Part shown: positions 5,008 through 29,938 of the stretch, piece by piece | How the letters are laid out: the number at the start of each line of letters is the position of its first letter | How positions within the stretch are numbered: position 1 is the first letter of the stretch | NCBI GenBank assembly: GCA_029263395.1 | Contig: JAJCXO010000040.1 | Location: forward strand, 1 to 64,000 | Direction of reading: 5' to 3' | Length of the DNA: 64,000 nucleotides | Source of the DNA: Acidobacteriota bacterium | Lineage (GTDB): Bacteria; Acidobacteriota; Thermoanaerobaculia; Multivoradales; J023 | Translations under genes and position numbers: made by a program | The notes under the pieces: model-generated | Seen by the model: only the letters and a program-made list of their open reading frames with translations | Databases searched by the model: none | Told to the model about the DNA's origin: nothing

Positions 5008-5523
5008 AAAACCACAGATCTTACAGAGCCTTCAAGGCTCTAAGGCGTTAAAGAGTGAGCTTCTATGAACAGGCTAGAAACCTCTAAATATAGAACTATC
5101 CCTGACAACAGAAGTCCAAGGCAGATAACAAAGAATAATGCACGCCGCATGTTGATCTCGAAACCACCACTGTAAAGATCCGAAGAACCTGCTTATCGAC
5201 AATTAACAATATTTAGGCTTGACCCGGTACGTATAAATAGTACAATTTGACTGCCGACGTCAGAAGCGCCTGACACGTTCCCAGGCGTTCTGATTGCTCT
5301 GAGATTCAGCGCTCGCACTTCTTGGTTTCAGCGCCATTGCCGTGCTCGACGTCGCTGACGACGTCCTCTCTTCCACTTCCAGGCTAGCTGCCAGCGGTTG
5401 ATCCAATCGGTCCGCTGACGGGATTCTTGCGGCCAGTCGTTGCCACCCCGCCAGGTGTCCGCGATCCGCCGATAGGTAGTTGTGTGTCCTCAGAACCTCC
5501 AGACGAGCGAGAGAACCGTGAGT
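5008..5523 (+). other. Intergenic region and long leader before the NRPS block
   Basis: About 515 bases without a supportable gene. The first 240 are conspicuously AT-rich against the surrounding DNA. It holds a perfect 17-base palindrome AGAGCCTTcAAGGCTCT (5025-5041), the promoter at 5219-5246, and about 270 bases of leader before the first NRPS start. I see no riboswitch or T-box hallmarks in the leader. Confidence 0.5.
5219..5246 (+). promoter_or_regulatory. Sigma-70-like promoter for the biosynthetic block
   Basis: TTGACC (5219-5224), 16-base spacer, TACAAT (5241-5246); each hexamer differs from consensus at one position. It lies in an AT-rich stretch and points at the NRPS. Predicted transcription start is near 5253, giving a leader of about 270 bases. 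Confidence 0.55.
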
Positions 5524-8500
5524 ATGAAAACCACAAAGGCTTCGCACCAGCCAACCTTGGCTCAGGATCTCTTTGCCCAACAAGCTACCCACCTACCGGA
5601 CGCGATCGCCGCAACATTCGAAGGCTCGACACTCACCTATCGGGATCTCGATCGACAAAGCAACCAGCTAGCGAATTACCTGCGGTCCCTGGGGTGTGGT
5701 CCAGAGCGCATGGTTGGAGTCTTTCTGGATCGGTCACTAGAGATGGTGGTCACCCTATTGGCGATCTTCAAGGCCGGTGGTGGCTACCTACCGCTAGACA
5801 CCCGGTACCCGCGTGACCGTCTCGGGTTGATGCTCGAAGACTGTGCAGGCGATTCCCAGTTGAAGGTGGGGGGCCCTCCCCTCCTCGTCACTTCGCAGCG
5901 CCTCGCCGACAAACTACCCGACAACCCATGTTGCACCGTGTTGCTCGACAGGGACCAAGCTGAGATCGCGTCCAGCAGTGCCGATCCTTTCGACCGTGAC
6001 GCCCCCTACCTAGACCGCGTGACGCCTGGGCACCGCGCCTACGTCATCTTCACTTCTGGCTCGACCGGAAGACCCAAGGGTGTTGTGGTTGAACATCGCG
6101 GTCTAGCCAATCTGATCGCGGCTCAGCAGCAAGTCTTCGACTTAGGGCCCAACTGCCGTGTGTTGCAATTTTCGCCCTATAGCTTCGATGCTTCGTTGTT
6201 CGAGATGGTGATGGCGTTGATGAACGGCGGTACGTTGGTCTTGGCGCCTCAAAGCCGGTTGTTACCCGGACCAGGACTGATCGAGTTGTTGCGCGACGAA
6301 GAAGTCACACATCTGACCATCCCGCCGTCGGCTCTGGCCAAACTGCCCCATGAACCACTGCCCAGCTTGCGGCAACTGATTGTCGCTGGCGAGGCCTGTG
6401 CACCGAGCGTCGTCCAGCGTTGGGGACGCGGACGGCAGTTTTTCAACGCCTACGGACCAACTGAGAGCACCGTGTGGTCAACCGTGGCCGAGTGTAGTGG
6501 CGCAGCCCAAGCACCACCGATCGGACGTCCGATCCACGGTCTGAGCACACACCTACTGACCCCGAACTTCCAGACGGCCGAGGATGGTGAGCTGTGCTTG
6601 GCTGGGGTTGGCCTCGCCCGTGGCTATCAACAACGACCGGCATTAACCGCAAGATCTTTCGTGCCGAATCCGGCGGCCGAGCTTGCTGGCGACCGTCTGT
6701 ACCGCACTGGCGATCGGGCTCGGAAACGATCGACCGGAGAGCTCGATTACCTCGGGCGCATCGACCGCCAAATCAAGCTGCGGGGACAACGTATCGAGTT
6801 GGGGGAGATCGAAAGCCGCCTGGTCAACCATCCCGAAATTGCCGAAAGCGTCGTATTGCTGCAAGGCCAGGACGATCCCGACAAGGCCATGCTTGTAGCC
6901 TACATTGTCCCTCAGCATTGCAGCGTCCCTCAGCATTTCAGCGTCCCTCAGGACCAGGAGCAGATACCGGCCCCCAACGAACTGCGGCGCTGGCTCCGGG
7001 AGGCGCTGCCCGAGATCATGGTCCCCGCCGCCTTCGTGTCGCTGGAAGCCTTCCCGCTCACTGGCAACGGCAAGATCAATCGGTCCGCGTTGCCCGTGGC
7101 AGAGATCTCGCGGGCAACAATGGGTTCGGCTTTCGAGCCACCCCGCGGCGCCACCGAACAGCAGGTGGCGGACGTCTTCAGCCAGCTGCTCGGCGTTGAG
7201 CCGGTAGGACGCTCGGACAACTTCTTCGAGCTCGGCGGTCATTCGCTCTTGGTGACCCGGCTGGTCACCGAGTTGCGCGAGCGTTTCCGAGTGGATCTGC
7301 CCCTCGCGGAGACGTTTACCCGCCTCACTACCAGGCAGCTCGCCGAGATGATCGACAGCGGCGAAACCCTGTCAGAGACGGAAGACGGGCCTAGCGCTGG
7401 TCCTCGGCCAGCCAGTATCCCGCTGTCGTTTGCCCAGGAGCGAGTGTGGTTCGTGCAAACCCTGCATCCGGACGCTGTCGCTTACCACGCCGCCGCCGTG
7501 CTCACCTTCGAAGGCCACTTGGACGTGACGGCGCTCGAGCGCAGCCTGAGCGAGATGGTGGTTCGACACGAAGTACTACGCACCACATTTCCAGCGGTCG
7601 ATGGCGAGCCAGTGCAGAGAATTCACAGCCCTTGGCCGGTCTCCCTCGACCTGCTCGATCTGACCCATCTCGACACTGCAATGCAGGAAGAGGAAATCCA
7701 CCGCCGATTTACCGCCACGATGCGTCAACCGTTCGATATGGCAGCGTTACCGTTGATCCGCTGGCTGTTGGTGCGCCAATCAGAGCAACGCTTTCAATTG
7801 TTCCAGGTGGAGCATCATCTGATCCACGACGGTTGGTCATTCAACGTCTTGTTGGGCGAATTGGTGGCCCTCTACCGGGCTTTCGCCGAAAACCAGCCGG
7901 CGGCGCTGCCGGCACTGCCCTTGCAGTTTGCGGACTTCGCCTGCTGGCAACGACGATGGACGGAAAGCGAGGCGGCGGCGCGTCAACTCACCTATTGGCG
8001 GCAGACGCTCGGCGGCGCCCCCGTTCTCGAGTTACCTCTCGACAAACCTCGCCCACCAGCGCAGAGCTTCGCTGGCGAGGTCCTGAAACTACAGCTCGAC
8101 GCCGAGCAGGCGGATCGGTCACGGGCGCTGGCACAACACCACGACGCCACGATTTATCAAGTACTGCTTTCGACCTTCCTGGTCCTGCTGCACCGGCTGA
8201 CCGGCCAACACGATCTTTCGGTCGGCTCCGGAATTGCCAACCGTCGGTGGCGACAGACCGAAACCCTCGCCGGCATGATCATCAACAATCTGGTGCTACG
8301 CAACCATCTCGCTGGCGACCCGAGCTTCCGTCAGCTGCTGGCGCAGGTCCGTCAGTCGACGTTGTCGGCGTATGCCCACCAGGACGTCCCGTTCGATCGG
8401 GTCGTCGACGCCGTCGATCCAGTACGCGACGCCAGCCGCAACCCCCTGTTCCAAGCAGCGTTCAGCTTCCACGACTCGCCGATCGCCGACCTCGCGTTGC

Positions 8501-10719
8501 CCGACGTCGAGCTCGACGTGGCGGTGGCGTTCAGCAACCGCACGGCCAAGTTCGACCTCAGTGTGATCGGCATCTTGCACCGGGAGCAACGGACCGGGAC
8601 AGCCAGCGCCGAATCGACGTCGGGCGTCATCGACATCCTGTTCGAGTACAACACCGCGCTCTTTCATCGCAGCTCTGTTGAACGATGGATGCGCCTGTAC
8701 CAACGGCTGCTCGACACCGCTGTAGCCAACCCTGAGCTGCCCCTGTCACAGCTCGGGAGTGGGCCGGTCGTACCCCAGCGCAACCGGTCTCAGTCGACGG
8801 TGTTTGAACGCACCGTCGAAAGCCACCACCTGTTGGTCGAATGGAACGATACCGCAACCGATCTGACCAACGAGCAGATGGTGCACCATGTAGTTGAGCA
8901 CTATGCACAGACGGCTGGAGACAACTTGGCGGTTGCGTTGGCTGGATCGATCTTGACGTATGACCAGCTCAACCGTCGATCCAACCGTTTAGCCCATCAG
9001 CTGCGCACTCTCGGAGCGGGGCCGGAATCTCTCATCGCTGTCTTCGCCCGTGGTGGCCCCAACATGGTGGTCGGGCTGCTGGCAGTCCTCAAAGCTGGCG
9101 CTGCGTATGTTCCGATCGACCCGGCCTATCCCGCCGACCGCATCACCTTCGTGCTCGACGACAGCGCGGCTGTGGCCCTGCTCACCACCGAGGAGCTGAA
9201 ACAACACCTACCGTCGTTCGAGGGGCCGGTGATCAGGCTCGATGAAACCCAGGATCGACCACTCGGGGACGACAACCCAGCGGTTTCCATGTCGCCCGAG
9301 AATCTCGCCTATGTGATCTACACCTCGGGTTCTACCGGGCGCCCGAAAGGGGTCCAGATCACCCATCGGGGGCTCGCCAACCTGGTGCGATGGCATCACC
9401 GGACCTACACCGTGACGCCACAAGATCGCGCCACGCAACTTGCCAGTCCCGCATTCGACGCTTCGGTGTGGGAGATCTGGCCCTACCTCACCGCCGGTGC
9501 CAGTGTGCATTTCCCCGGTGAGGAAATCCGGCTTTCCCCGGCCGACCTGCTGCAGTTTTTTGCCGACCAAGCGATCACTCTGAGCTTTGCGCCGACGCCC
9601 CTCGCCGAGGCCATGTTGGACGAACCCTGGCCCGACACCCTACCTTTGCGTGCACTGCTCACCGGCGGTGACCGCTTGCGTCGACGGCCGCCAGAACAAG
9701 CACCACCGTTGATCAACCACTATGGTCCGAGCGAAAACTCAGTGGTAGCAACCTGGGCTCCTGTCGCAACCGGAGCTGGCTCGCCGCCGCCGATCGGCCG
9801 GCCGCTCGACAACGTCCAAGGTTATTTGGTGGATCAAGCCCTGAGGCCGGCGATGCAGGGAGTGGCGGCGGTGCTGACCCTAGGCGGTGTCAGCTTGGGA
9901 CGTGGCTACCTCGCTCGGCCCGCGCTGACGGCAACAAACTTCGTACCTGATCCTTTTGGTCGACAGCCAGGAGCTCGCCTGTATTGGACCGGTGATCGCG
10001 TTCGCCATCTCGCAGGCGGTCAAATCGACTTCCTGGGTCGGGTCGACCATCAGGTCAAGATCCGCGGTTTCCGGATCGAGCTCGGTGAAATTGAGGTGGC
10101 ACTGCAGCGCCATCCGCGGGTCCACGACGCGGTGGTGATTGTCCATGAAGACGACAACAGCCTGGTGGCGTATGTGGTCCCAGTCACCGGCGACATCGAG
10201 GCCTCCGAGCTCGACGAGCATCTGCGGGCCGAGCTACCACCGTACATTGTGCCGCATACTTTCGTCCAAATGTCCGAGCTGCCGTTGGGCGCCCATGGCA
10301 AAGTTGATCGCAAGGCACTGCCCGCCCCTGTTCAAACGAGTGAGCCCCAGGTCGCGCCGCGAGACGCGACCGAACTTCGGATCGCCAACATTTGCGAGCA
10401 GCTACTCGGGCATTTGGTCTCCGGGGTCCGGGATGACTTTTTCCGTTCGGGCGGCAACTCACTGCTCGCCACCAGAGTGCTCTCCAGGGTCAATCAGGCG
10501 TTCGCCGTCCAGGTGCCGCTCGGCGAATTCCTCGCCCAACCCACCGTTGCCGCCCTCGCGCAAGCGGTTAGAAGGCGCCAAGGCCAGAGCTCGGCGGAGC
10601 CTATCGAACGCTTCGCCTGGCGAGACAACGATCGCCTGCTGTCCCAACTCGATGAGCTCTCCGAAAGCGAAGTTGAATCCCTATTGCTCGAAATGCAACA
10701 AGCCGGAGGTGCTGCTTGA
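5524..10719 (+). CDS. Non-ribosomal peptide synthetase, A-T-C-A-T (first two modules)
   Basis: Loads and joins the first two residues. A1 at about residues 13-520 (FTSGSTGRPKG, NAYGPTES, YRTGD, NGKIN); T1 with GGHSLL, Ser574; C at about 633-1090 with intact HHLIHDG; A2 at about 1130-1600 (YTSGSTGRPKG, NHYGPSEN, GKVDRK); T2 GGNSLL, Ser1646; then a charged tail LDELSESEVESLLLEM. Codes read by eye: A1 D-A-F-T-I-A-A-V-W-K, close to PheA-type aromatic codes; A2 D-A-W-F-L-G-H-V-V-K, one change from the common Leu code. No starter C or E domain. ATG 5524 chosen; GTG 5518 and GTG 5482 are in frame. The stop overlaps the next NRPS start by 4 bp. A1 contains an 18-bp triplication at 6907-6960. Confidence 0.93.
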   Translation: MKTTKASHQPTLAQDLFAQQATHLPDAIAATFEGSTLTYRDLDRQSNQLANYLRSLGCGPERMVGVFLDRSLEMVVTLLAIFKAGGGYLPLDTRYPRDRLGLMLEDCAGDSQLKVGGPPLLVTSQRLADKLPDNPCCTVLLDRDQAEIASSSADPFDRDAPYLDRVTPGHRAYVIFTSGSTGRPKGVVVEHRGLANLIAAQQQVFDLGPNCRVLQFSPYSFDASLFEMVMALMNGGTLVLAPQSRLLPGPGLIELLRDEEVTHLTIPPSALAKLPHEPLPSLRQLIVAGEACAPSVVQRWGRGRQFFNAYGPTESTVWSTVAECSGAAQAPPIGRPIHGLSTHLLTPNFQTAEDGELCLAGVGLARGYQQRPALTARSFVPNPAAELAGDRLYRTGDRARKRSTGELDYLGRIDRQIKLRGQRIELGEIESRLVNHPEIAESVVLLQGQDDPDKAMLVAYIVPQHCSVPQHFSVPQDQEQIPAPNELRRWLREALPEIMVPAAFVSLEAFPLTGNGKINRSALPVAEISRATMGSAFEPPRGATEQQVADVFSQLLGVEPVGRSDNFFELGGHSLLVTRLVTELRERFRVDLPLAETFTRLTTRQLAEMIDSGETLSETEDGPSAGPRPASIPLSFAQERVWFVQTLHPDAVAYHAAAVLTFEGHLDVTALERSLSEMVVRHEVLRTTFPAVDGEPVQRIHSPWPVSLDLLDLTHLDTAMQEEEIHRRFTATMRQPFDMAALPLIRWLLVRQSEQRFQLFQVEHHLIHDGWSFNVLLGELVALYRAFAENQPAALPALPLQFADFACWQRRWTESEAAARQLTYWRQTLGGAPVLELPLDKPRPPAQSFAGEVLKLQLDAEQADRSRALAQHHDATIYQVLLSTFLVLLHRLTGQHDLSVGSGIANRRWRQTETLAGMIINNLVLRNHLAGDPSFRQLLAQVRQSTLSAYAHQDVPFDRVVDAVDPVRDASRNPLFQAAFSFHDSPIADLALPDVELDVAVAFSNRTAKFDLSVIGILHREQRTGTASAESTSGVIDILFEYNTALFHRSSVERWMRLYQRLLDTAVANPELPLSQLGSGPVVPQRNRSQSTVFERTVESHHLLVEWNDTATDLTNEQMVHHVVEHYAQTAGDNLAVALAGSILTYDQLNRRSNRLAHQLRTLGAGPESLIAVFARGGPNMVVGLLAVLKAGAAYVPIDPAYPADRITFVLDDSAAVALLTTEELKQHLPSFEGPVIRLDETQDRPLGDDNPAVSMSPENLAYVIYTSGSTGRPKGVQITHRGLANLVRWHHRTYTVTPQDRATQLASPAFDASVWEIWPYLTAGASVHFPGEEIRLSPADLLQFFADQAITLSFAPTPLAEAMLDEPWPDTLPLRALLTGGDRLRRRPPEQAPPLINHYGPSENSVVATWAPVATGAGSPPPIGRPLDNVQGYLVDQALRPAMQGVAAVLTLGGVSLGRGYLARPALTATNFVPDPFGRQPGARLYWTGDRVRHLAGGQIDFLGRVDHQVKIRGFRIELGEIEVALQRHPRVHDAVVIVHEDDNSLVAYVVPVTGDIEASELDEHLRAELPPYIVPHTFVQMSELPLGAHGKVDRKALPAPVQTSEPQVAPRDATELRIANICEQLLGHLVSGVRDDFFRSGGNSLLATRVLSRVNQAFAVQVPLGEFLAQPTVAALAQAVRRRQGQSSAEPIERFAWRDNDRLLSQLDELSESEVESLLLEMQQAGGAA
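6907..6960 (+). repeat. Three 18-bp direct repeats inside A1
   Basis: GTCCCTCAGCATTGCAGC, GTCCCTCAGCATTTCAGC and a diverged third copy GTCCCTCAGGACCAGGAG lie head to tail. They encode VPQHCS-VPQHFS-VPQDQE in the C-terminal A subdomain, between the GEIE and GKIN core motifs. The phase is kept, so this is an in-frame loop expansion. Confidence 0.8.
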
Positions 10720-13700
10720 TAACCCCTGAGAAGAAATCGCCAGAGCCTCAGCCGCTCGAAGAGCGTCGCGCCCTGTTGGCGCGTCTGCTGCGACAGCGCA
10801 CCGCCGAGACCACGTTTGTGCCGTCTTATCCACAGCAACGATTGTGGTTTCTGGACCAACTACAACCCGAAAACCCGGTCTACAACGTGCCACTGGGCTA
10901 TCGCCTGCAAGGCCCGTTGGATGTCTCTGCCTTGCAACACGGGCTGAACGAGATAGTTCGCCGCCACGAGATCTTGCGGACGGTGTTTCGCGAGACCGAT
11001 GCCGGGCCACGGCAAGTGGTGATACCTCCTAGCCTGGTGGCATTGCCGGTGATCGACCTCTCCGACAGCCCCAGACAAGAGGAAGAACGTTGGATCCAAC
11101 AGCAAGCCGGCAGCAGTTTCGACCTCAGCCGTGGCCCCTTACTCCGCCCGCTGCTGATCCGTCGCGGCCCGGCCCAACACACCTTGTTGTTGACCGTCCA
11201 CCATGTGGTTTTCGACGGCTGGTCCGCACGAGTATTGGTGACCGAACTCACCGCGCTTTATGCCGCGTTCACCTCTGGTAACCCTTCTCCCCTGCCGGCG
11301 CTGCCGATTCAGTACGCCGAGTTTGCGGAGTGGCAACATCGTCATCTGGCCGGTGAGACACTCGATCGACTACTGCACTACTGGCGGACGCAGCTCGATG
11401 GGGTGACTGCCATACCTGGCCTGGTCACCGATACTCCTCGGCCCCAAGTGCAGAGTTACCACGGCGATTTCCACACCTTCGAAGTCTCGGCCACGGTGCT
11501 GACTCCACTCGTCGCATTTGGACAGGCGGGCGGCGCAACCCCGTTCATGACCTTGTTGGCAGCTTTCGCGGCGCTGCTCGACCGTTACACCGAAGGCGAC
11601 CAACTGGTGCTAGGCACCCCGATCGCCAACCGCGGACGAGCCGAGCTCGAACCGCTGATCGGCTTTTTTACCAACACCCTGGTGCTGCGTTTGATTACTG
11701 CTGGCAACCCGACGTTTGCCGAGCTGCTAGAGCGGGTCAAACAGACCACCGTGGCAGCCTACGCCCATCAGGATCTTCCGTTCGAGCGCCTGGTGGATGA
11801 GCTCCACCCAGAACGAGACCTGGCTCAGAATCCCTTGTTCCAGGTGCTGTTCAGCTATCGCGAGGGCGAAAACGAAATCCTTCACTTCGACGGCGTGCAG
11901 GGTGAGATGGTGGTCGGCCGCAACAACACTGCAAAGTTTGACCTCTCACTCAGCTTGACCCGCCTCGACGACTGTCTCCACGGTCGTTTGGAGTTCAGCA
12001 CGGACCTCTTCCGTGCCGATACGGTGCGTCGTCTGGCCGCGCAGTTCCAGACCCTCGTCGAGAATCTGGTCGAGGCTCGACAGCGACGCCTGGACGAACT
12101 CCCGATTTTTCCCGAGGCCGAACGTAGGCAGTTGCTGGAATCCTGGAATAAAACCGCCGCTGACTATCCGCGAGATCAGCTAGTCCACCAGCTGATCGAG
12201 GCCAGAGTCGAACCCAATAGCCGTAAAATCGCCTTGGTTTTTGGTCATCGAGAGTTGACCTACGACGGGCTCAATCGTCGCGCCAATCAGCTCGCCCACC
12301 TGCTACGTGGCCACGGCGTTGGACCCGAGGTGGCGGTTGGCGTGTTCTTGGATCGCGGGCCCGAGATGGTGGTCGCGATGCTCGGCATCCTCAAAGCGGG
12401 TGGTGCCTATCTACCCCTCGATCCCGCCTATCCCGAGGATCGCCTGGCGTTTGTACTGCACGACGCGGCGGCACCGGTGATCGTCACCAACAACCACCTG
12501 GCGCGACGATTGGAGCCGGGCTCACCGGCACCCTACTCCGGCACGCTGGTGTGCCTGGACGGTGATCGGGAGAGTCTTGCAGCACAACCATCGGAGAATC
12601 CGTCCTCGACAGCCACCCCCGCCAGCAGCGCTTACCTGATCTACACCTCGGGCTCCACCGGTTTGCCCAAAGGCGTTTGTGTCACCCACCGCACCGTCGT
12701 CAACTTCTTTACCGGCATGGACGGTATCGCTGGAGCAGAGACTGGGGCGGGGGTAGCCTGGCTCGCCGTCACCAGTATCTCGTTCGATATCTCGGTGCTC
12801 GAACTGCTGTGGACCTTGGCCCGCGGCTTCGAAGTAGTGATTCACGACGAGCGGGCGGCCAGCAACATGGCCAAACTCTCGCCCGCCGCCCAGCGACCGA
12901 TCAGCTTCAGTCTGTTCTACTTCGGCGGCGATCCGCGGGTCTCCACCGAAGGCCGCTACCGCTTGCTGCTCGAAGGTGCCCGTTTTGCCGATCAACACGG
13001 CTTCGAGGCGGTGTGGACACCGGAACGCCACTTCCATGATTTTGGTGGGCTATTTCCCAACCCTGCGGTAACCGGCGCCGCCCTGGCCGCGATTACTCAA
13101 AACGTCCAGATCCGCGCCGGCAGTGTGGTATTGCCGCTCCACGAGCCGTTGCGAGTGGCTGAAGAGTGGTCGGTGGTCGACAATCTGAGTGGTGGCCGGG
13201 CCGGCATCTCCTTCGCATCCGGTTGGCACGCCGACGACTTCTCCTTGGCCCCCACCAACTACACCGAGCGCAAGCAGATCATGCTCGACGGCATCGCCGA
13301 GGTCCGGCGACTGTGGCGTGGGGAGACCACCAAGCGCCTCAGTGGCACCGGCCAAGAGGTTGAGCTCGGAATCTATCCACCGCCGGTCCAAGACGAGCTG
13401 CCGGTCTGGCTGACCAGTGCCGGCAATCCCGAAACCTTCCGCATTGCCGGTGAGATGGGTGCCCATGTCCTAACCCACCTGCTGGGCCACGACATTGATC
13501 AATTAGCCGACAAACTCGAGGTCTACCGCCAAGCCTGGCGCCTGCACCAACCCACTGGTGAAGGCTACGTCACGGTGATGCTCCACACCTTTGTCAGTCA
13601 GGATGCTGAAGAAGCACGGGATCTGGCGCGGGGTCCACTATCAGCCTATTTGAAAACCTCGTTCTCACTGCTTGCCAACCTCGGACGCAGCATGGGGCGC

Positions 13701-15263
13701 GAGGTTGATTTCAAGACCCTACCTGCTGCTGAGCTCGACGAGCTGGTCGAACAAGCGGTCGAGCGTTTCGGCCAAACCGCGGCACTGCTTGGCACACCCG
13801 AAGCCTGTGCCGACATGATCGATCGCCTCAAGACGATCGGGATCGATGAAGTGGGCTGCTTGATCGACTTTGGCATCGACGTCGACGTCACCCTGGCTCA
13901 TCTCAGCGATCTCAATGAGGTGCGACAGATCTGTGAGCAGCGGCGGCAACAGGCATTACGCGGCGCTGAACACACCGTGGCCGCCCAGATCCGGCGACGC
14001 CAAATCTCCCATCTTCAGTGCACCCCCTCAATGGCACGCCTCCTGCTGGCGGAAGACGGCGCCCGCGAGAGTATCGGTGAGCTGAGCAAGCTATTGCTCG
14101 GCGGTGAAGCTCTTCCGAGTGAGCTAGCCCGCGAACTGCTCGCTTGCGGCGTTGGTGAGCTTCACAACATGTATGGCCCGACCGAAACCACCGTCTGGTC
14201 GACAACTCAACGGGTGACACCCCACACACCGGTCACTATCGGGCGACCGATCGCCAACACACACATTTATCTCCTTGATCGCCACTTGCGGCCTACCCCC
14301 ACAGGCGTCCCGGGAGAGCTGTGTATCGGAGGCGATGGCGTCACCCGTGGCTATCACCGTCGACCGCGGCAAACCGGCGAGCGCTTCATTCCGGATGCCT
14401 TCGGCAACCGCCACGGTAGTCGGCTCTATCGCACCGGTGACCTCGCTCGCTATCAACCCAGCGGCGAGCTCGAGTTCCTCGGTCGGCTCGATCACCAGGT
14501 CAAGATTCGCGGCTATCGCATCGAGCTGGGCGAGATCGAAACGCTGCTGGCGAGCTTCCCAGGAGTCAACCAAGCCGTGGTCATCGCACGTGATGGACAG
14601 CACGGTGATCGACAGTTGGTCGCCTACTACCTCACCACAGACGGCGCCAACTCAGCAGTCCTGTCGCCTCGTGAGCTTCGCGCCCACCTTCAACGTCAGC
14701 TACCGGATTACATGCTGCCGGCCGCTTACGTCAGGCTGGAGGCTTGGCCGTTGACGCCCAACGGCAAGGTCGACCGCGGCGCTCTTCCCGATCCCGAACA
14801 CGCCACACGGCCGACTACTCGAGCTGAGCTGAAGCCCCCAAGCAACAAATTGGAGAGCACCATCGCCGGGATCTGGCAAGAGACCCTGCAACTCGACCGG
14901 GTCGGCGTCAACGACAACTTCTTCGACCTCGGAGGCAACTCGTTCTCAGTTGTCCACGTGCGGAGTCGCCTACTCCAGGCCTTGAAGCGCGCCCCTACCT
15001 TGGTCGAACTGTTCCGTTATCCAACGGTCGGATCGTTGGCGGAAGCATTGGCTCGGAGTGAGGCACCGTCCTTCGATCAGACACCGTCTCTCAATGGGGC
15101 ACCGGTCCGCAACGGTGCACCGGCCCGCAACGGAGCACCATCTTCAGACGAAGCCAACGAGACTTCGGTCGAATCGGTCGAGAACACCGCACAGAAACGT
15201 CGTCGCGCCCTCAGTCGACGCGGCCACCACGCCCGCCAGCTCAAAGAGCGCCAGGCGAGCTGA
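10716..15263 (+). CDS. Non-ribosomal peptide synthetase, C-A-T with luciferase-like monooxygenase inserted in A
   Basis: Third module. C at about residues 30-458 (HHVVFDG). A starts near 491 and is split: the front part ends after core A4 (FDISVLELLWTLARG), and it resumes at ISHLQCTPSMARLL (about 1096), A5 NMYGPTETTVW, A7 YRTGDLARY, A10 NGKVDR. T at about 1380-1445 (GGNSFS, Ser1409). The 340-residue insert is an FMN-dependent luciferase-like monooxygenase of the MupA/Atu3671 type (TIGR04020). The A code read across the insert, D-I-L-Q-L-G-M-V-W-K, is close to known Gly codes. No TE or reductase; the C-terminal tail has Asn-Gly-Ala-Pro repeats and basic residues. TTG start 10716 overlaps the upstream stop (TTGA) and has GGAGG at good spacing, so the two NRPSs are translationally coupled. 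Confidence 0.92.
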   Translation: MITPEKKSPEPQPLEERRALLARLLRQRTAETTFVPSYPQQRLWFLDQLQPENPVYNVPLGYRLQGPLDVSALQHGLNEIVRRHEILRTVFRETDAGPRQVVIPPSLVALPVIDLSDSPRQEEERWIQQQAGSSFDLSRGPLLRPLLIRRGPAQHTLLLTVHHVVFDGWSARVLVTELTALYAAFTSGNPSPLPALPIQYAEFAEWQHRHLAGETLDRLLHYWRTQLDGVTAIPGLVTDTPRPQVQSYHGDFHTFEVSATVLTPLVAFGQAGGATPFMTLLAAFAALLDRYTEGDQLVLGTPIANRGRAELEPLIGFFTNTLVLRLITAGNPTFAELLERVKQTTVAAYAHQDLPFERLVDELHPERDLAQNPLFQVLFSYREGENEILHFDGVQGEMVVGRNNTAKFDLSLSLTRLDDCLHGRLEFSTDLFRADTVRRLAAQFQTLVENLVEARQRRLDELPIFPEAERRQLLESWNKTAADYPRDQLVHQLIEARVEPNSRKIALVFGHRELTYDGLNRRANQLAHLLRGHGVGPEVAVGVFLDRGPEMVVAMLGILKAGGAYLPLDPAYPEDRLAFVLHDAAAPVIVTNNHLARRLEPGSPAPYSGTLVCLDGDRESLAAQPSENPSSTATPASSAYLIYTSGSTGLPKGVCVTHRTVVNFFTGMDGIAGAETGAGVAWLAVTSISFDISVLELLWTLARGFEVVIHDERAASNMAKLSPAAQRPISFSLFYFGGDPRVSTEGRYRLLLEGARFADQHGFEAVWTPERHFHDFGGLFPNPAVTGAALAAITQNVQIRAGSVVLPLHEPLRVAEEWSVVDNLSGGRAGISFASGWHADDFSLAPTNYTERKQIMLDGIAEVRRLWRGETTKRLSGTGQEVELGIYPPPVQDELPVWLTSAGNPETFRIAGEMGAHVLTHLLGHDIDQLADKLEVYRQAWRLHQPTGEGYVTVMLHTFVSQDAEEARDLARGPLSAYLKTSFSLLANLGRSMGREVDFKTLPAAELDELVEQAVERFGQTAALLGTPEACADMIDRLKTIGIDEVGCLIDFGIDVDVTLAHLSDLNEVRQICEQRRQQALRGAEHTVAAQIRRRQISHLQCTPSMARLLLAEDGARESIGELSKLLLGGEALPSELARELLACGVGELHNMYGPTETTVWSTTQRVTPHTPVTIGRPIANTHIYLLDRHLRPTPTGVPGELCIGGDGVTRGYHRRPRQTGERFIPDAFGNRHGSRLYRTGDLARYQPSGELEFLGRLDHQVKIRGYRIELGEIETLLASFPGVNQAVVIARDGQHGDRQLVAYYLTTDGANSAVLSPRELRAHLQRQLPDYMLPAAYVRLEAWPLTPNGKVDRGALPDPEHATRPTTRAELKPPSNKLESTIAGIWQETLQLDRVGVNDNFFDLGGNSFSVVHVRSRLLQALKRAPTLVELFRYPTVGSLAEALARSEAPSFDQTPSLNGAPVRNGAPARNGAPSSDEANETSVESVENTAQKRRRALSRRGHHARQLKERQAS
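12898..13930 (+). other. Luciferase-like (MupA/Atu3671-type) monooxygenase domain within the NRPS
   Basis: Domain-level annotation inside the second NRPS, about residues 728-1070. The domain opens with ISFSLFYFGGDPR. Typical bacterial-luciferase-fold segments follow: GARFADQHGFEAVWTPERH, RAGSVVLPLHEPLRVAEEW, LSGGRAGISFASGWH and VWLTSAGNPETFRIAGEMG. The family uses FMNH2 and O2 to oxygenate a substrate. Insertion between cores A4 and A5 suggests it acts on the residue bound to this module's T domain, but that is inference. Confidence 0.9.
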
Positions 15264-15294
15264 TTAACCAAGCACTTCCGCCAGGAGATCAGTG

Positions 15295-16251
15295 ATGGCA
15301 TCCCACAGCGGCTCCCCCAAGGGTTCCCAAAAAGGCTCCTCCAACCTGCCGATGGCCTACCTCGACCATACGGTGGTCATGCTCGACGATCAGGCACACC
15401 AGGAGCTTCTGGCCAGTGAGCTCGTACGCCAGCAACTGGGTCGTTTCAAGATCAAAACCGCAACCAGCTCGCTCGCCAACACTTATGAAAGTGCCGGTCT
15501 CGCTGGGGCCCGCACGCTGATGGAGTTCTTCCATGTGGCCGCGCCACCCTTGCCGTCCTTGGTGGGTGCCGTGGTGCTGTCCTTTCCACAACCGGGTTCA
15601 CTCCAGAAAATTCGTCCGTTGCTCGAAACACGTCTCGAACACGGCATCGATTATCAGATGGTCACCCGGACGTTGGTCGAGGATGAGGAGCCGAGGCCTT
15701 GGTACCAGTTGATCCGCCCCAATCTCGGCGAGAACAGTCCTTTCCTCTTGATGTTGGCCGAGGTCACCGCCGACTACTTCGAGCATCTGGGAGCGTCCTC
15801 GGGACCTGGCGGCGAGCTCCATCGTCACAACTACCTCACCGCTGCCCTAGGCAGTGATCACCGCCCCGACTACTACCTCGGTGACGTTTCTGAAGTGACC
15901 ATCAATCTCGAAGCGCAGCGGGCGGAAATTCTCGGCACGGCGCTCGTCACCCTGGGCTACACCGCCGAGTCCAACGGCGTTGGAATCTGTTATCGAGGTC
16001 CAGACATCACCCTGCGTGTGGTCAGCTCGACAACGCTTCGGGAAGGCATCATCGCCATCGCAACCTCCCTCCAACGCCCTAAAGCTGCCCCGATCGACTA
16101 TCGCTTCGGCACCACAACCAAGCTGTCCTTCGGCTCCCCCAACACTGGTGTGTGGAGCTTCGAACCACCGTTACCTCACGCGCCGCTCCAGCCCTCATCT
16201 GGGCTCGCCACTGCAGCCCAGTCCGAGACCTCTCCGGCGAGCGAAGCCTAA
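15295..16251 (+). CDS. VOC-like (possible DUF5829) protein, unknown function
   Basis: 318 residues from ATG 15295 with AGGAG upstream; a GTG one codon earlier is possible. It lies 31 bases after the Gly-module NRPS and 77 bases before the P450, so it is probably co-transcribed and specific to the pathway. The N-terminal part (LDHTVVMLDDQAHQELLASE...) and the central acidic and aromatic segments resemble glyoxalase/VOC-fold proteins annotated DUF5829; this assignment is tentative. No signal peptide; the C-terminus is Pro/Ala/Ser-rich. It might bind a pathway intermediate or metal. I cannot assign a reaction. Confidence 0.6.
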   Translation: MASHSGSPKGSQKGSSNLPMAYLDHTVVMLDDQAHQELLASELVRQQLGRFKIKTATSSLANTYESAGLAGARTLMEFFHVAAPPLPSLVGAVVLSFPQPGSLQKIRPLLETRLEHGIDYQMVTRTLVEDEEPRPWYQLIRPNLGENSPFLLMLAEVTADYFEHLGASSGPGGELHRHNYLTAALGSDHRPDYYLGDVSEVTINLEAQRAEILGTALVTLGYTAESNGVGICYRGPDITLRVVSSTTLREGIIAIATSLQRPKAAPIDYRFGTTTKLSFGSPNTGVWSFEPPLPHAPLQPSSGLATAAQSETSPASEA

Positions 16252-16328
16252 CGGATCGACGGCGGACCTATTCGATAGCAGACCGTACCGTCCGCAGACC
16301 TATCGATGGCAGAAAGGAAACGTACGAG

Positions 16329-17648: not shown

Positions 17649-17669
17649 GATCGAGCCTTGGAGCCCTGC

Positions 17670-20600
17670 ATGAGCCAATCGATATCCGACGACTCGGTTG
17701 AAAGTATCGCCGTTATCGGCATGGCCGGGCGTTTCCCAGGGGCTGCGACAACCGCGCAACTGTGGCACAACCTCGACGCGGGGGTGGAGTCGGTCTCGCG
17801 GTTCTCGGACGAGGAGTTGCTCGACGCCGGTATCGATCCTGAAACGGTAGCCGACCCGGACTACGTGAAGGCCTCCGCCACAATCGAGCAGGCCGATCAT
17901 TGGGATGCCCCGTTCTTCGGCTACAGCCCTCAAGAGGCAGAGATCCTCGATCCCCAGCACCGCCTGTTCCTAGAGGTGGCGTGGGAGACCTTGGAAGATG
18001 CCGGCTACGACCCGGCGCGCTACGACGGCTCGGTCGGAGTCTTTGCCGGCTGCTTCATGAACAAATATCTGCCGACCAATCTTCATACCAACCAAAGATT
18101 CCTCGACTCCCCTTACGCCTTTTTCGCCCGGGTCTTCAACGACAAGGACTTCTTGGCGACCCGTGCGTCCTACCTGTTCAACTTACGAGGCCCTAGTCTG
18201 ACCATCCAAACCGCGTGTTCGACTTCCTTGGTTGCCACCCACATGGCCTGCCTCAGTCTGATGAGTTATGACTGTGACATGGCACTGGTCGGCGGCGCAG
18301 CACTCAATGTGCCACTGAAATCGGGTTACCCGGTGATCGACGGCGGGTTGTTCACCGGTGAAGGCCATTGCCGACCGTTCGACGCTCGGGCTCAGGGGAC
18401 AATTCCCGGCTACGGGGCGGCGGCGATTGCCCTGTGTCGCTTGCCGGACGCGATCGCTAGTCGCGACAACATCCGGGCGATCATCCGCGGCACTGCGATC
18501 AATAATGATGGGTCCTCGAAAATCGGTTTCACGGCGCCGAGCGTCGATGCTCAGGCAGCGGTGATCAAGGCGGCACAATCCTATGCCGGCGTCGACGCGG
18601 AAACCATCGGCTACGTGGAGGCTCACGGCACCGGCACCTCGGTGGGTGACCCGATCGAAGTTGCGGGTCTGAGCACCGCATTTGCGACCAAAAAGCGAGG
18701 TTTCTGCGCTCTCGGCTCGGTCAAAGCAAACATCGGCCATCTCGATGCCGCCTCTGGCGTCGCTGGTCTGATCAAGGCGGTGTTGGCCCTCGAACATCGA
18801 AAGATTCCGCCCTTGATCAACTTCGAACATCCCAATCCCGACCTCGAGCTCGAGAAAACACCGTTCTACATCAACACCACATCGCTCGACTGGCCACGCA
18901 ACAGCGCCCCACGGCGGGCCGGCGTCAGCTCACTCGGCGTCGGCGGCACCAACGCCCACGCCGTCTTGGAAGAGGCGCCCGAGCGTGCAGCTTCTTCCCC
19001 GAGTCGAACTTGGCAACTGTTGACAATCTCGGCAAAAACCCGATCTGCCGTCGACGCCGCTACCCATCAACTAGCTGATCATCTGGAAGCTCACCCCGGG
19101 CTTCGCCTCGCCGATGTCGCCTATACCCTGCAGGCTGGTCGCAAACAATTCGAGTTGCGGCGCACTTTGGCGTGCAGCGGGCCAACCGAAGCGATCCACG
19201 GCTTACGTCAGTTGCGGCGCCCTGCATCGGCGGTGGCTGCAACCCGGCGCCCGGTGGTCTTCATGTTCGGCGGTGGCGGCACTCAATATCCCGACATGGG
19301 GCTCGAGCTCTATCGCACCGAGACGCGCTTTCGCGACGACATCGATCGTTGCGCTCAACATCTCGAACCTCTTTTGCAGCTCGATTTACGCCACTACCTC
19401 TACCCGAGTCTGCACCCTGCCGGCGCCGACATCAGCCACCGTCCACCGCACGTGCTCGCCGCGCTGGTCGCGACACAATATGCCTTGGCTCAACTGTGGA
19501 TGTCCTGGGGCCTGGTGCCCCAGGCGCTGATCGGGCACAGCATGGGCGAATACCTGGCGGCCTGCCTATCGGGGGTGTTCACTCTCGAACAAACCCTCGC
19601 CTTGGCAGTCCGACGAGGTCAGCTTTTCGAAGCCGTGCCATCGGGTGCCATGTTGATCGTCCAACTTTCCGAGAGCGATGTTCAGTTGCACCTCGGCGAT
19701 CAGCTATCGGTAGCCGCGGTGAACGCGCCGTCGGTTTGTGTGGTCTCGGGCGCCACCGCCGCCATCAACACCTTGGAGGCCACCCTGCGGGCCAGCGACA
19801 TCGAGGTACGTCCGGTGCACATCGCGGTCGCCAGCCATTCCTTGCTGATGGACCCGGTGGCTCCCGAGCTTGCTGACTTCGTCTCTCAGATGTCACTGTC
19901 GGCCCCGACGATCCCATTCCTTTCGGGCGTCACCGGCACTTGGATCCGTCCTGACGAGGCCACTGACCCAGCCTATTGGGCGCGGCATCTGCGGCAAACA
20001 GTTCGTTTTGCCGACGGTGTCCGTGAACTGATGAGCAACTCCGATCGGGTGTTGCTGGAAGTTGGTCCCGGCAACGCTCTGTGTACCCTCGCCGGCCTGC
20101 AAGGCTTACAACCCGTGCCGGTAGCCCTACCGACCCTGCGTCACCCTCAAGATCCGCAGTCCGACCAAGGTTTCCTCACCACAACCCTCGGCAAACTGTG
20201 GCAGGCCGGAGTCGCCATCGATTGGGACAGCTACCACGCTCCGGACAAGCCCGGTCGGGTCTCGCTACCAACCTATCCCTTCGAACGCCGCAAATTCTGG
20301 ATCGAGGCCGGGCGCCCGAGCCGGGGCGAGCCGGTCTCTACCGGTGATCTACTGACTCGACCGGAACCTCCGAACGGCACCGATCCACACCTGGCTATGG
20401 ACGCAGCTGGAGGAAGTCTCAGTAGTGAAGATCTCGAGAACGAGAACTACCGTCGACCGCGGACCGAACGCGAGCAGCAGCTGGCGGTGATCTGGCAACA
20501 GCTATTGGGCGTCGAACGAGTCAGCGTCGACGACGACTTCTTCGAGCTTGGCGGCCATTCCCTGCTGGCGACCCAGATGATGAAGAAGCTACGCCGGTCG

Positions 20601-21950
20601 TTCGGTTTCAAACTGAATCTGCGGACTCTCTTCGAAGCGCCAACCATTGCTCAACTAGCACCGCTCACTCAGGGTGAGGGGCTCGAGGCAGCCACCTCAG
20701 CGATTGATTTTGACGCTGAGGTGATGCTCGATCCGGCGATCGAACCCGCTGGGCTGCCAGCCCCCGTCAGCACGCCACCGCGCACCGTGTTGCTCACCGG
20801 TGCCACCGGTTTTCTCGGCGGCTTCTTGGCCCGTGAGCTGCTGCACCAAACCTCCGCCGAGGTGATCTGTCTGGTGCGAGCTGAAGATCCGGCATCTGGC
20901 TGGGATCGCCTACGCCACAACCTGGAGTCCTATGGCATCGACGAACCACAGGCCGAGGCCCGGCTGGTAGCGCTGCCTGGAGATCTGTCACAGCCTCTGC
21001 TCGGCCTCTCCGAGACCACGTTTGATCAATTGGCCCAAGAGGTCGACGTGATTTATCACTGCGGTGCCTGGGTGAACTTCGCCCGGCCGTACAAAGCCCT
21101 CAAAGCGACCAATGTCTCGGGGACCGAAGAAATCTTGCGGCTCGCGACCCGTCGACGCCTCAAGCCGGTCCACCACATCTCAACTCTTGCTGTCTTGGCA
21201 GGTGCGGTCGCCGCCAGAGTTGATGAAGTTCTGGAGGACGATGGGCTGCCGGCCGCCATCGGCCACGATACCGGCTACAGCCAAAGTAAATGGGTGGCCG
21301 AGAAGATGCTGGCGCTGGCCCGTCAGCGAGGCCTACCGATCGCCGTCTATCGACCTAGCGTGGTGTTAGGAGACAGCGTCTCGGGAGCCTCCAACGAAGA
21401 CGACTACCTGACCAAGATGATCCAGGGCTGTGTCCAGCTCGGGCTGGCGCCACGGCGTGACTATCCCTTGACCGTTGCCACCGTCGACTTCGTCAGTGCG
21501 GCGGTCGTAGCCCTTTCCCTGGATCAGCAATCCTGGGGTCAGAGCTTCCATGTCATCGACCCGGATCCGCTGCCATGGGATCAGATCTTCGCCCACCTAC
21601 GCAGCTTGGGATACGACGTTCCGAGTATCGACTATGAGCAGTGGAAGCGCGCCTTGAGCCAACGCATCGATCAGGCTCAGGACAACGCTCTCGCCCCGTT
21701 GGCGGCGTTGCTGGCCGACGATCCCGACCGGCAGATGCCGAAATTCGATTGCCGCAATCTTTTGGCTGGGCTCGAACCGACGGCGGTGACTCGCCCAGCG
21801 ATCGACCTCGATCTGTTTGCGACCTTAGCCGACTATTTTGTCACCAACGGCTGGCTGCCGAAGCCGAAGAGCCCCACCAGATCGGCAGACGAGACGCTTG
21901 CAAGATTGCAACGTGATCCTGAATCGACCCATTCGGCGAGGCCAATCTAG
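17670..21950 (+). CDS. Type I polyketide synthase with terminal thioester reductase (KS-AT-ACP-TR)
   Basis: Adds one C2 unit and releases the chain. KS at about residues 10-430 with TACSTS (Cys183), EAHGTGTSVGDP and VKANIGH; AT at about 527-855 with GHSMGEY (Ser624) and VASHSLLM at the specificity site; ACP with GGHSLL (Ser964); TR at about 1040-1390 with GATGFLGG (NADPH loop) and TGYSQSK (Tyr-x3-Lys). No KR, DH, ER or methyltransferase, so the beta-carbonyl should remain. The TR is the only release domain in the assembly line and should give an aldehyde, or an alcohol after a second reduction. Start ATG 17670 has GGAG six bases upstream. Confidence 0.93.
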   Translation: MSQSISDDSVESIAVIGMAGRFPGAATTAQLWHNLDAGVESVSRFSDEELLDAGIDPETVADPDYVKASATIEQADHWDAPFFGYSPQEAEILDPQHRLFLEVAWETLEDAGYDPARYDGSVGVFAGCFMNKYLPTNLHTNQRFLDSPYAFFARVFNDKDFLATRASYLFNLRGPSLTIQTACSTSLVATHMACLSLMSYDCDMALVGGAALNVPLKSGYPVIDGGLFTGEGHCRPFDARAQGTIPGYGAAAIALCRLPDAIASRDNIRAIIRGTAINNDGSSKIGFTAPSVDAQAAVIKAAQSYAGVDAETIGYVEAHGTGTSVGDPIEVAGLSTAFATKKRGFCALGSVKANIGHLDAASGVAGLIKAVLALEHRKIPPLINFEHPNPDLELEKTPFYINTTSLDWPRNSAPRRAGVSSLGVGGTNAHAVLEEAPERAASSPSRTWQLLTISAKTRSAVDAATHQLADHLEAHPGLRLADVAYTLQAGRKQFELRRTLACSGPTEAIHGLRQLRRPASAVAATRRPVVFMFGGGGTQYPDMGLELYRTETRFRDDIDRCAQHLEPLLQLDLRHYLYPSLHPAGADISHRPPHVLAALVATQYALAQLWMSWGLVPQALIGHSMGEYLAACLSGVFTLEQTLALAVRRGQLFEAVPSGAMLIVQLSESDVQLHLGDQLSVAAVNAPSVCVVSGATAAINTLEATLRASDIEVRPVHIAVASHSLLMDPVAPELADFVSQMSLSAPTIPFLSGVTGTWIRPDEATDPAYWARHLRQTVRFADGVRELMSNSDRVLLEVGPGNALCTLAGLQGLQPVPVALPTLRHPQDPQSDQGFLTTTLGKLWQAGVAIDWDSYHAPDKPGRVSLPTYPFERRKFWIEAGRPSRGEPVSTGDLLTRPEPPNGTDPHLAMDAAGGSLSSEDLENENYRRPRTEREQQLAVIWQQLLGVERVSVDDDFFELGGHSLLATQMMKKLRRSFGFKLNLRTLFEAPTIAQLAPLTQGEGLEAATSAIDFDAEVMLDPAIEPAGLPAPVSTPPRTVLLTGATGFLGGFLARELLHQTSAEVICLVRAEDPASGWDRLRHNLESYGIDEPQAEARLVALPGDLSQPLLGLSETTFDQLAQEVDVIYHCGAWVNFARPYKALKATNVSGTEEILRLATRRRLKPVHHISTLAVLAGAVAARVDEVLEDDGLPAAIGHDTGYSQSKWVAEKMLALARQRGLPIAVYRPSVVLGDSVSGASNEDDYLTKMIQGCVQLGLAPRRDYPLTVATVDFVSAAVVALSLDQQSWGQSFHVIDPDPLPWDQIFAHLRSLGYDVPSIDYEQWKRALSQRIDQAQDNALAPLAALLADDPDRQMPKFDCRNLLAGLEPTAVTRPAIDLDLFATLADYFVTNGWLPKPKSPTRSADETLARLQRDPESTHSARPI

Positions 21951-21977: not shown

Positions 21978-23378
21978 GTGGTAGCAACAATTCCCGCCAA
22001 CGGTTTCCGTACGTTCAGCGTGATCTGGCTCGGTCAGCTGGTGTCTCTGATCGGGTCAGGCCTGACCTCGTTTGCCCTTGGCGTCTGGGTCTATCAGAAG
22101 ACCGGCTCCGCCACCCACTTCGCCTTCATTTCACTGGCGACCACCTTCCCTATCGTAGCCCTGTCGCTGATCTCTGGTCCATTGGTTGATCGCTGGGATC
22201 GACGCAAGGTGTTGATTGCTAGCGACTGCGTTGCGGCCGGCCCAACCGTCGTGGTTGCTCTGTTGTTGATGAGCGGCCGGTTAGAGATCTGGCATATTTA
22301 TCTGGCGGTAGGAATCAGCTCCTCGTCCACTGCTTTTCAATGGCCGGCCTACACTGCCACAACCACCCTCTTGGTTCCCAAACAGCACCTGGCACGGGCG
22401 GCTGGCATGGTCGAGTTCTCACGCGCCGGAGCCATGATCTTGTCGCCGATGCTGGCCGGCGTGCTGATGGTTTACATCGACATCTGGGGCATCATCCTGA
22501 TCGACACGCTGACCTTCCTGGCCGCAATCTCGACGCTCCTGGTGATGCGCGTTCCGACCCCTGAACGGAGTCGCGAGGGTGCGCAGCCCCAAAGCTCGTT
22601 GTGGCAAGAGGCCAGGTTCGGCTGGGTCTACCTGCTGGCCCGTCCGGGGCTGGTCCGGCTTCTGGCCTACTTCTCGTTCATGAACTTCTCTGTTGCCTTG
22701 GTGCTCGGCCTGACGACACCGATGATGCTGTCGTTCACCACCGCGGCGGTGCTTGGCATGACCTTGTCAGTTGGCGCCCTAGGCATGCTGTTGGGCGGTG
22801 TGGTGTTGAGCGTGTGGGGTGGGCCGAACCTCAAAGTCCATGGGATCCTAGGCTTCGGCTTGCTGTTGGGAGCCGGACTGGCGCTGGCCGGCATGCATCC
22901 CGCTCCGCTGCTCATCACCTTCGGATTGTTCTGGTACAACTTCTCCATACCGATCATCAACGGCTGTAGCCAAGCAATCTGGCAAAGCAAGATACCGCCC
23001 GAGCTTCAGGGTCGGGTCTTCGCCATTCGCCGGATGTTCGCCACCTTCACCGCGCCCCTCGGCTATCTGGTGGCCGGACCTTTGGCTGACCGACTCTTCG
23101 AACCCATGCTGGCGACGGGGGGGGCCCTCGCCGGAAGTTTCGGGCAGCTCATAGGTGTCGGGCCAGGTCGTGGGATCGGCCTGATCTTCATTCTGCAAGG
23201 CCTGTTGTCGATTGGTGTGGCCGGCGTCGGTTTCCTGTCGCCACGCCTGATGCGGGTCGAGGCCGAGTTACCCGACGCTGTCGACGCTGTCGACGCCAAC
23301 CCTGCCAACGAACCACCTGACGACGCGACGTCTGATACGGCAAGTCTCGGGCCCGAAGCCGTGTCCGCAAAAGCATGA
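21978..23378 (+). CDS. MFS transporter, EntS-like exporter
   Basis: 466 residues with about 12 membrane spans and an MFS motif A variant (GPLVDRWDRRK) after span 2. GTG 21978 has GAGGAG at 21966-21971. It starts 27 bases after the PKS stop, and MFS proteins of this type are usual self-resistance or export genes in NRPS clusters, so it probably exports the product. The C-terminal 45 residues are hydrophilic with a short Val-Asp-Ala repeat. Contains an 8-G run at 23117-23124. Confidence 0.88.
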   Translation: MVATIPANGFRTFSVIWLGQLVSLIGSGLTSFALGVWVYQKTGSATHFAFISLATTFPIVALSLISGPLVDRWDRRKVLIASDCVAAGPTVVVALLLMSGRLEIWHIYLAVGISSSSTAFQWPAYTATTTLLVPKQHLARAAGMVEFSRAGAMILSPMLAGVLMVYIDIWGIILIDTLTFLAAISTLLVMRVPTPERSREGAQPQSSLWQEARFGWVYLLARPGLVRLLAYFSFMNFSVALVLGLTTPMMLSFTTAAVLGMTLSVGALGMLLGGVVLSVWGGPNLKVHGILGFGLLLGAGLALAGMHPAPLLITFGLFWYNFSIPIINGCSQAIWQSKIPPELQGRVFAIRRMFATFTAPLGYLVAGPLADRLFEPMLATGGALAGSFGQLIGVGPGRGIGLIFILQGLLSIGVAGVGFLSPRLMRVEAELPDAVDAVDANPANEPPDDATSDTASLGPEAVSAKA

Positions 23379-23399
23379 ACTCAGCGAGGAATTGTGAAC

Positions 23400-24617
23400 A
23401 TGAAAGATCCTGTCCTCATTCGCCGCCGCCGCTTATTCTGGCTGGCGTTACCACTATTGGCCGTCACCTTGAGCACAGTCGCCGGTGAGCTCTTCGTCCG
23501 CTTGACCTCACCACAACCCGTGACCACTGTTTCCAAGGGCCTGTTCGAGCCCGATCCACCACGCCGCTTCCGGCTCGCCCCCGGCTATCGCGGCACAATT
23601 TCCAACGTCATCGACTTCCACAACGAGGTCACCATCAATTCTCTGGGGCTGCGAGGGCCGGAGGTGCCGCCCAAACCTACCGGCGGCTTTCGCATTCTTA
23701 GCATCGGTGATTCGTTCGCCTTTGGTTATGGGGTCGAGCCTGACGAGAGCTACGCCGGGGTGCTAGAGGCGCATCTGAGAACAACCCAACTCGAAATTGA
23801 ATGTTTGAATGGCGGAGTCCCTGGTTATGGCGTACCGGACGCGGTGGATTGGCTCGAAACCTATGGTTTGGACCTCAAGCCCGATCTCGTCTTGCTTTCG
23901 GTTTACCTCGGAAACGACATCATGGACGCCACGCAGAAAAGTCGCGAGGACGGTTTCTCATTCCTCTTTCCCGGCGCCGGCCCGATGCGCGGCCCTCTGC
24001 TTTGGCTTTACGGGCATTCCCACGCCTTCCGACTCGGCCTGAGGAACGACTTCAAGGGAGTTCGCGCTGTCTTGGGTCTGCCGGATCCGCCCGTGATCGA
24101 CGCCATGCGAGAGATGGCCCAAAGCTTCAGCTCGGACACAGATCTCGGGCGCGAAGGCCGGTCCGCCAACCTCACCGCCTTCAGCCAACTCCTGGAGCTC
24201 GCCGATCGACAAGGTTTCCACCTCGCGGCGATGATCATCCCCAGCCGGTTCATGCTCGAATCAGACTACCGGGAGGCCGTGCTCACCAGACTTGGTATGG
24301 ATGCCAAGAACCACGACCCCGAGGCACCATGGCGGTTCTTCCAGGAATCCTTTGCGGCGTTCGGCATCCCCACCCTCGATATGACACCGGCCATCCAACA
24401 AGCGCTAGCCAACAGCGACCCGGTTTATTTCAAAGCAGATCCGCATTGGTCGGCGGCTGGCCATCGCTTGGCTGGCGACGCCCTACATCGCTTCCTGATC
24501 TCGGAAGACCTGATCGGACAAGGCTTGATCGCGACCGAGCGGGTCGCGGAAGACCTGACGCCGGCCTCGTCGTCCGAGGTACCGGCCACCGAACCCTCGC
24601 CTGAGACAGCCCTCTGA
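23400..24617 (+). CDS. SGNH/GDSL-family hydrolase, membrane-anchored
   Basis: 405 residues. N-terminal basic residues and a hydrophobic segment (LFWLALPLLAVTLSTVAG) indicate a membrane anchor or signal, with the catalytic domain outside. Block I GDSFAFG has the nucleophile Ser at residue 105, a GND block is at LGNDIMD, and the C-terminal Asp-x-x-His is DPHWSAAGH (Asp347, His350). It is 21 bases after the MFS gene on the same strand. Possible roles are ester hydrolysis or acyl transfer on the exported product or on envelope glycans; not distinguishable here. ATG 23400 is preceded by GAGGA. Confidence 0.82.
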   Translation: MKDPVLIRRRRLFWLALPLLAVTLSTVAGELFVRLTSPQPVTTVSKGLFEPDPPRRFRLAPGYRGTISNVIDFHNEVTINSLGLRGPEVPPKPTGGFRILSIGDSFAFGYGVEPDESYAGVLEAHLRTTQLEIECLNGGVPGYGVPDAVDWLETYGLDLKPDLVLLSVYLGNDIMDATQKSREDGFSFLFPGAGPMRGPLLWLYGHSHAFRLGLRNDFKGVRAVLGLPDPPVIDAMREMAQSFSSDTDLGREGRSANLTAFSQLLELADRQGFHLAAMIIPSRFMLESDYREAVLTRLGMDAKNHDPEAPWRFFQESFAAFGIPTLDMTPAIQQALANSDPVYFKADPHWSAAGHRLAGDALHRFLISEDLIGQGLIATERVAEDLTPASSSEVPATEPSPETAL

Positions 24618-29912: not shown

Positions 29913-29938
29913 GCAGGCTCTCCTCTAGAAAATTCTTC

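Follow-up and report, generated by a model that had tools for sequence, protein, structure and literature searches.

A member of DUF5829, a spread-out protein family of unknown function, is encoded within an NRPS-PKS operon of the window (the whole stretch of 64,000 nucleotides analysed here), and its gene is tied to that pathway as far as two examples, the known clusters on which the assignment rests, can show. We tentatively favour the view that this family member has been recruited into the one pathway as a dedicated tailoring enzyme, a cytoplasmic VOC-type protein that would act through a metal held by one histidine and two glutamates. DUF5829 thereby gains a probable fold and a candidate metal site, and one branch of the family is placed in a pathway that would allow its role to be probed. 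The idea that these proteins are general partners of modules bearing a luciferase-like monooxygenase (LLM) domain is corrected. A related idea, of a slot between such a module and the following PKS, would help to predict the products of little-studied Acidobacteriota clusters; coral-associated members of the phylum are described as rich in biosynthetic clusters in an excerpt of PMC13083261, and the window may, at a guess, derive from one of them.

The DUF5829 gene

The gene occupies an open frame of 318 codons on the plus strand (15295..16251), with AGGAG, resembling a ribosome-binding site, at 15283..15287 (+), 7 bases 5' of its ATG. It lies 31 bp after the stop codon of the LLM-bearing NRPS, and 77 bp separate it from the ATG of a cytochrome P450 gene at 16329; the earlier note, which described a 318-residue protein with a good ribosome-binding site and tight spacing, was correct in each of these respects. 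In Pfam the protein, for which a two-domain VOC fold is predicted, matches DUF5829 (PF19147) over residues 23-289 with E=4.7e-17 and 62.9 bits, against a gathering cut-off of 33.8, and the match spans profile positions 1-265 of 265, placing the protein within the family. 'Tentative', as the resemblance to DUF5829 had been called, therefore undersells a full-length match, and 'orphan' does not suit a member of a dispersed family. The genome that contains the window carries a single DUF5829 copy, and the protein has no hydrophobic N-terminal stretch.

Aligned with its 53%-identical relative in the genome OFTM328, the gene differs at 125, 82 and 174 first, second and third codon positions respectively over 292 codons, with dN of 0.47 and dS of 1.93, from which we conclude that it is constrained by purifying selection. 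The interval from 15000 to 18000 yielded no promoter-like site; it has four terminator-like sites against 2.3 expected, which we do not count as evidence. Among PDB sequences no match was obtained with the window protein (best E 1.8) or with a profile of DUF5829 relatives (best E 0.28, to a cytochrome c). The window protein matched nothing in NCBIfam and had no relative in the plasmids or viral contigs searched; there was no DUF5829-protein match in PHROGs (best E 0.51) or PADLOC, and the term DUF5829 was absent from the literature searched.

The operon and its counterpart in a second genome

The operon is continuous, spans 5482-27112 and is encoded on the plus strand. It opens with NRPS1 (5482..10719), arranged A-PCP-C-A-PCP according to Pfam, and NRPS2 (10716..15263), arranged C-A-PCP according to domain search, with the LLM domain (TIGR04020, 494.7 bits, 12906..13925) inserted in its A domain between motif A4 at aa 690 and motif A5 at aa 1153. 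At the positions extracted, which follow the literature, the code of this A domain is D-I-L..M-V-W, which we take to be glycine-like. After the DUF5829 gene come the cytochrome P450 (16329..17648) and then, as assigned by domain search, a KS-AT-ACP-thioester reductase PKS (17658..21950), an MFS transporter (21978..23378), an SGNH/AlgX-like hydrolase (23394..24617) and a MacB/FtsX-type permease (24638..27112), all on the plus strand. Beyond the 3' end of the operon, at 28188-32375, an AMP-binding ligase, a RimK-like ATP-grasp protein and a mandelate-racemase/epimerase-type protein are encoded in a row; no counterpart of this trio was seen beside the second cluster.

That second cluster, in the Acidobacteriota metagenome-assembled genome OFTM328 (G397), is syntenic and comprises NRPS1 (50% identical over 1751 aa), NRPS2 (54%), the P450 (about 58-59%), DUF5829, the PKS (58%), the MFS transporter (55%) and the MacB-type permease (51%); a counterpart of the hydrolase was not found in it. 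The two DUF5829 proteins are about 52-53% identical, each cluster's gene adjoins the P450, and the OFTM328 protein is the closest relative of that in the window. Because the syntenic cluster has been kept in OFTM328, we assign the DUF5829 protein to the NRPS-PKS pathway. The gene order there is NRPS2-P450-DUF5829-PKS, with P450 and DUF5829 swapped relative to the window. The proposal that the gene holds a fixed place between LLM-NRPS and P450 therefore fails, since the sole other cluster departs from that order. Close relatives of the P450 are confined to the two cluster-bearing genomes, the next best in the class being 44% identical (147 genomes). A contig scan of the genome collection with the single window protein returned no relative; a second, with a two-row alignment, returned OFTM328 only, a scan that relied on two short peptide patterns and would have missed distant relatives in other phyla.

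Predicted fold

A two-domain VOC fold is likely, judging by two AlphaFold models, both made from two sequences only, with pLDDT values of 52 and 61 (the second after trimming). The paired beta-alpha-beta-beta-beta modules that characterize VOC proteins are found in both, the first module being poorly modelled at these pLDDT values. For each of the two models, the 50 VIA matches shown are all VOC-type, either by title or, for 3p8a, by a match to Glyoxalase_3; Z reaches 10.8 with the first model, and the trimmed model agrees at 10.5. The matches include 3p8a, HPPD, hydroxymandelate synthase and extradiol dioxygenases, with Z of about 9-11 over about 190-230 residues, and the overall arrangement of the window protein thus resembles that of these enzymes across about 200 residues. 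Foldseek, suggested in the earlier note as a check, gave a divided answer: for the first model 3p8a was the best match (E=3.8e-4), followed by HPPD, extradiol dioxygenases and FosB near E=1e-2, but for the trimmed model E-values were weaker and two phage capsid chains outranked 3p8a. VOC matches in a viral structure library had E-values of 0.33 or worse.

The sequence of 3p8a, the best VIA fold match for both models, is itself a Glyoxalase_3 match (PF13468, E=3.6e-13). Compared with Glyoxalase_3, a profile of six DUF5829 relatives scored 24.4, the best of 100 column shuffles reaching 21.2; adding the window and OFTM328 proteins lowered this score to 20.65, which one of 100 shuffles exceeded (20.96). 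Unlike members of Glyoxalase_3, the window protein has no significant sequence match to that family, and the profile comparison stands just above the shuffles. Ordinary Glyoxalase profiles, including the Glyoxalase proteins of the window's own genome, gave no profile match to DUF5829. Glyoxalases and ring-cleaving dioxygenases are the probable relatives of DUF5829, and the VOC resemblance noticed earlier is borne out as likely through two low-confidence models and a weak Glyoxalase_3 profile match. There is precedent in HglS, presented in an excerpt of PMC7286885 as belonging to a DUF family that proved to be a VOC enzyme.

A candidate metal site

Three residues of the window protein form a candidate H/E/E metal site: H25 (codon 15367..15369), E77 (15523..15525) and E156 (15760..15762), all on the plus strand. 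Across 11 aligned DUF5829 rows the first is histidine and the second glutamate in every row, and the third is glutamate in 10 and aspartate in one; W136, R177 and D197 are also invariant. E77 aligns with the invariant glutamate of Glyoxalase_3 that follows a TY-x pattern. This conservation suggests that H25, E77 and E156 may bind a metal, and by the module order of VOC proteins they presumably occupy three of the four positions that usually supply ligands in the N-terminal barrel. H25 and E156 lie on modelled strands, and E77 falls in a stretch with pLDDT <50 that is drawn as helix.

A site of the HPPD or extradiol type was considered and rejected. In HPPD and the extradiol dioxygenases a 2-His-1-Glu iron site is housed in the C-terminal barrel, whereas the conserved H/E/E residues of DUF5829 are in the N-terminal one. 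An eight-row DUF5829 alignment has no invariant histidine or glutamate after R177, the invariant residues there being D197, V198, G228, G251, G272, W287 and F289, and since the C-terminal half lacks a conserved histidine or glutamate, the site is not of that kind.

Proposed role in the pathway

In the reading that we tentatively prefer, the protein, built from two pairs of beta-alpha-beta-beta-beta modules, would hold a divalent metal through H25, E77 and E156 in its N-terminal barrel. An oxidised intermediate or product would be chelated by this metal through a pair of adjacent oxygens, belonging to hydroxyls or ketones that could originate from the LLM domain, the ketosynthase or the P450, and the protein would thus promote an isomerisation, dehydration or cyclisation after assembly or late in it. 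The substrate and the catalysis are what we infer here, and the conserved H/E/E residues speak for an enzyme.

VOC proteins are already known in biosynthetic clusters. Excerpts of the respective papers describe SrbJ, a VOC/glyoxalase-like protein of unknown role whose deletion abolishes sorangibactin A (PMC10127202), and LrgB of largimycin, which also has a VOC domain and no assigned role (PMC9396626). Like SrbJ, the window protein is probably of VOC type and sits in an NRPS cluster, the SrbJ cluster being siderophore-type; the two are likened by description only.

The main rival to a tailoring enzyme, and one that we consider unlikely though better placed than the others, is by analogy a binding protein similar to DnrV or the mitomycin-resistance protein, whose VOC-type cleft would sequester the product, relieve product inhibition of the P450 and protect the cell, performing no chemistry. 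According to PMC12979805, DnrV binds doxorubicin and prevents product inhibition, and its gene immediately precedes doxA, which encodes a P450; the window protein, probably also of VOC type, resembles it in that a P450 is encoded alongside in a biosynthetic operon. What favours this rival is the P450 neighbourhood: the P450 is the constant neighbour of DUF5829 in both clusters, in either order, and its close relative (59% identical, against 44% for the next best) occurs only in the two cluster genomes. However, two related clusters may simply have inherited the same neighbour, and MFS and MacB-type transporters are also encoded in the operon. Furthermore, PMC12979805 draws a parallel between DnrV and the mitomycin-resistance protein, which is among the VOC proteins that have no metal, whereas DUF5829 keeps potential metal ligands, the H/E/E residues, in nearly all relatives; this comparison, too, is by description only.

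Distribution of the family

DUF5829 was found in 4 of 148, 6 of 193 and 2 of 162 genomes in three whole-class surveys, and in 7 of 396 genomes in a sample of the phylum. A match in G408 (E=6.3e-4, 87 residues) is not counted as DUF5829 and does not recur at E<=1e-5, and a fragment in G734 (105 aa, at a contig edge) is included among the 12 positive genomes of the three classes but excluded from the tree and the residue counts. Only two of these 12, the window's genome and G397, have DUF5829 in an NRPS cluster. When the 11 other than the window's were searched for condensation domains, one lay on the DUF5829 contig in G397 alone; three of the ten remaining contigs are short (5.8, 9.4 and 4.0 kb), so that seven of the ten NRPS-free cases are informative. 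The earlier note had named homologues lying mostly away from NRPS clusters as a finding that would count against its proposal, and this is the situation in 10 of 12 genomes (three with contigs <10 kb). Relatives other than that of OFTM328 are thus outside NRPS clusters where the contig permits a judgement, in contrast to the window member.

The window protein is 20-25% identical to six aligned DUF5829 relatives. A tree puts the window and OFTM328 proteins together, beside G246 and G522; support for this placement is weak (65/90) and the branch is flagged as long, and we draw no inference about origin. Relatives at L006, L007, L010, L023 and L070 have hydrophobic, signal-peptide-like N-termini, and therefore part of the family may be exported and the NRPS-linked form not. 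Another relative, at L019 (8694-10151, minus strand), continues into a C-terminal part containing THNHRDHF, which by eye resembles a metallo-beta-lactamase-type hydrolase.

This distribution also bears on the prospect that a resident DUF5829 gene of the bacterial family simply landed in the operon, as a bystander or for general detoxification, with no part in the chemistry. DUF5829 does occur alone in the same taxonomic family (G246), and the window and OFTM328 proteins share a long branch (2.41 changes per column), yet the gene has been kept inside the operon core in two genera despite the changed order of its neighbours, and it is under purifying selection; we regard this explanation as improbable.

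Linkage with LLM-glycine modules

The earlier note saw in the protein a candidate partner for the LLM-glycine module. In myxothiazol and melithiazol modules, according to an excerpt of PMC10204066, the monooxygenase lies between A4 and A5 and the hydroxyglycyl unit is cleaved to an amide. NRPS2 of the window is similar to these MtaG/MelG-type modules in where its monooxygenase sits, inside a glycine-type A domain and flanked by A4 and A5, but in the excerpt a thioesterase comes next, whereas NRPS2 ends with PCP and the operon continues with KS-AT-ACP-reductase.

Across the class, 20 TIGR04020 loci exceed the cut-off, in 13 of 147 genomes; G414:C80, with half an LLM domain and a score under the cut-off, is left out. 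DUF5829 adjoins two of the 20. A class-wide search with the A1 profile rather than PF19147 (E<=1e-5) found DUF5829-like genes in 4 of 148 genomes (G000, which is the window's genome, G397, G246 and G478), the 148 and 147 genomes being draws not matched genome by genome, and among the 13 LLM-bearing genomes only G000 and G397 also have DUF5829. Inspection of 17 LLM neighbourhoods, the window included and several ending at contig edges, gave a DUF5829 or P450 match only in the window and G397; for G448, G286 and G486 the absence of DUF5829 is taken from the class-wide search alone. The repeated co-occurrence that the earlier note looked for in a neighbourhood search was thus not found, the swapped order in OFTM328 undoes its argument from position, and a general partnership of DUF5829 with LLM-NRPS modules is not supported. 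Even as a trans-acting protein of this one cluster, processing an alpha-hydroxyglycyl thioester on the carrier protein by, for example, carbinolamide cleavage or dehydration, such a partner is improbable: the gene does follow the LLM module by 31 bp in the window, and the module does share the insertion site of the myxothiazol and melithiazol type, but 18 of the 20 loci have no adjoining DUF5829, the order is swapped in OFTM328 and the family lives mostly outside NRPS clusters.

Two sister clusters have a different protein in the corresponding place. Pfam identifies FkbM twice at C138 (L055), once as a methyltransferase domain of the NRPS and once as a stand-alone protein encoded ahead of a KS-AT-KR-DH-ACP PKS; at L058 it finds such a stand-alone protein, also ahead of the PKS. 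The assessment of L062 was made by eye. The FkbM domain and protein at C138 suggest an O-methylated hydroxyglycine there. With FkbM between module and PKS in two sister clusters, and DUF5829 and the P450 in the window, the comparison suggests a modular slot between oxidised-glycine module and PKS, which may be where the oxidised glycyl unit is processed, and this lends the trans-acting partner some support. Returning to the tailoring enzyme, a more specific and rather doubtful version would have it act on an alpha-hydroxyglycyl-beta-ketone produced by the LLM domain and the ketosynthase, whose hydroxyl and ketone would serve the metal as its vicinal oxygen pair. The outcome would be a new ring closure or the cleavage of a carbon-nitrogen bond, and the DUF5829 step would replace the methylation suggested for the sister clusters. 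The window's own genome has three TIGR04020 LLM loci, G000:C10 (L054), C138 (L055) and C40 (12906-13925 of the window), and DUF5829 is found with neither of the first two.
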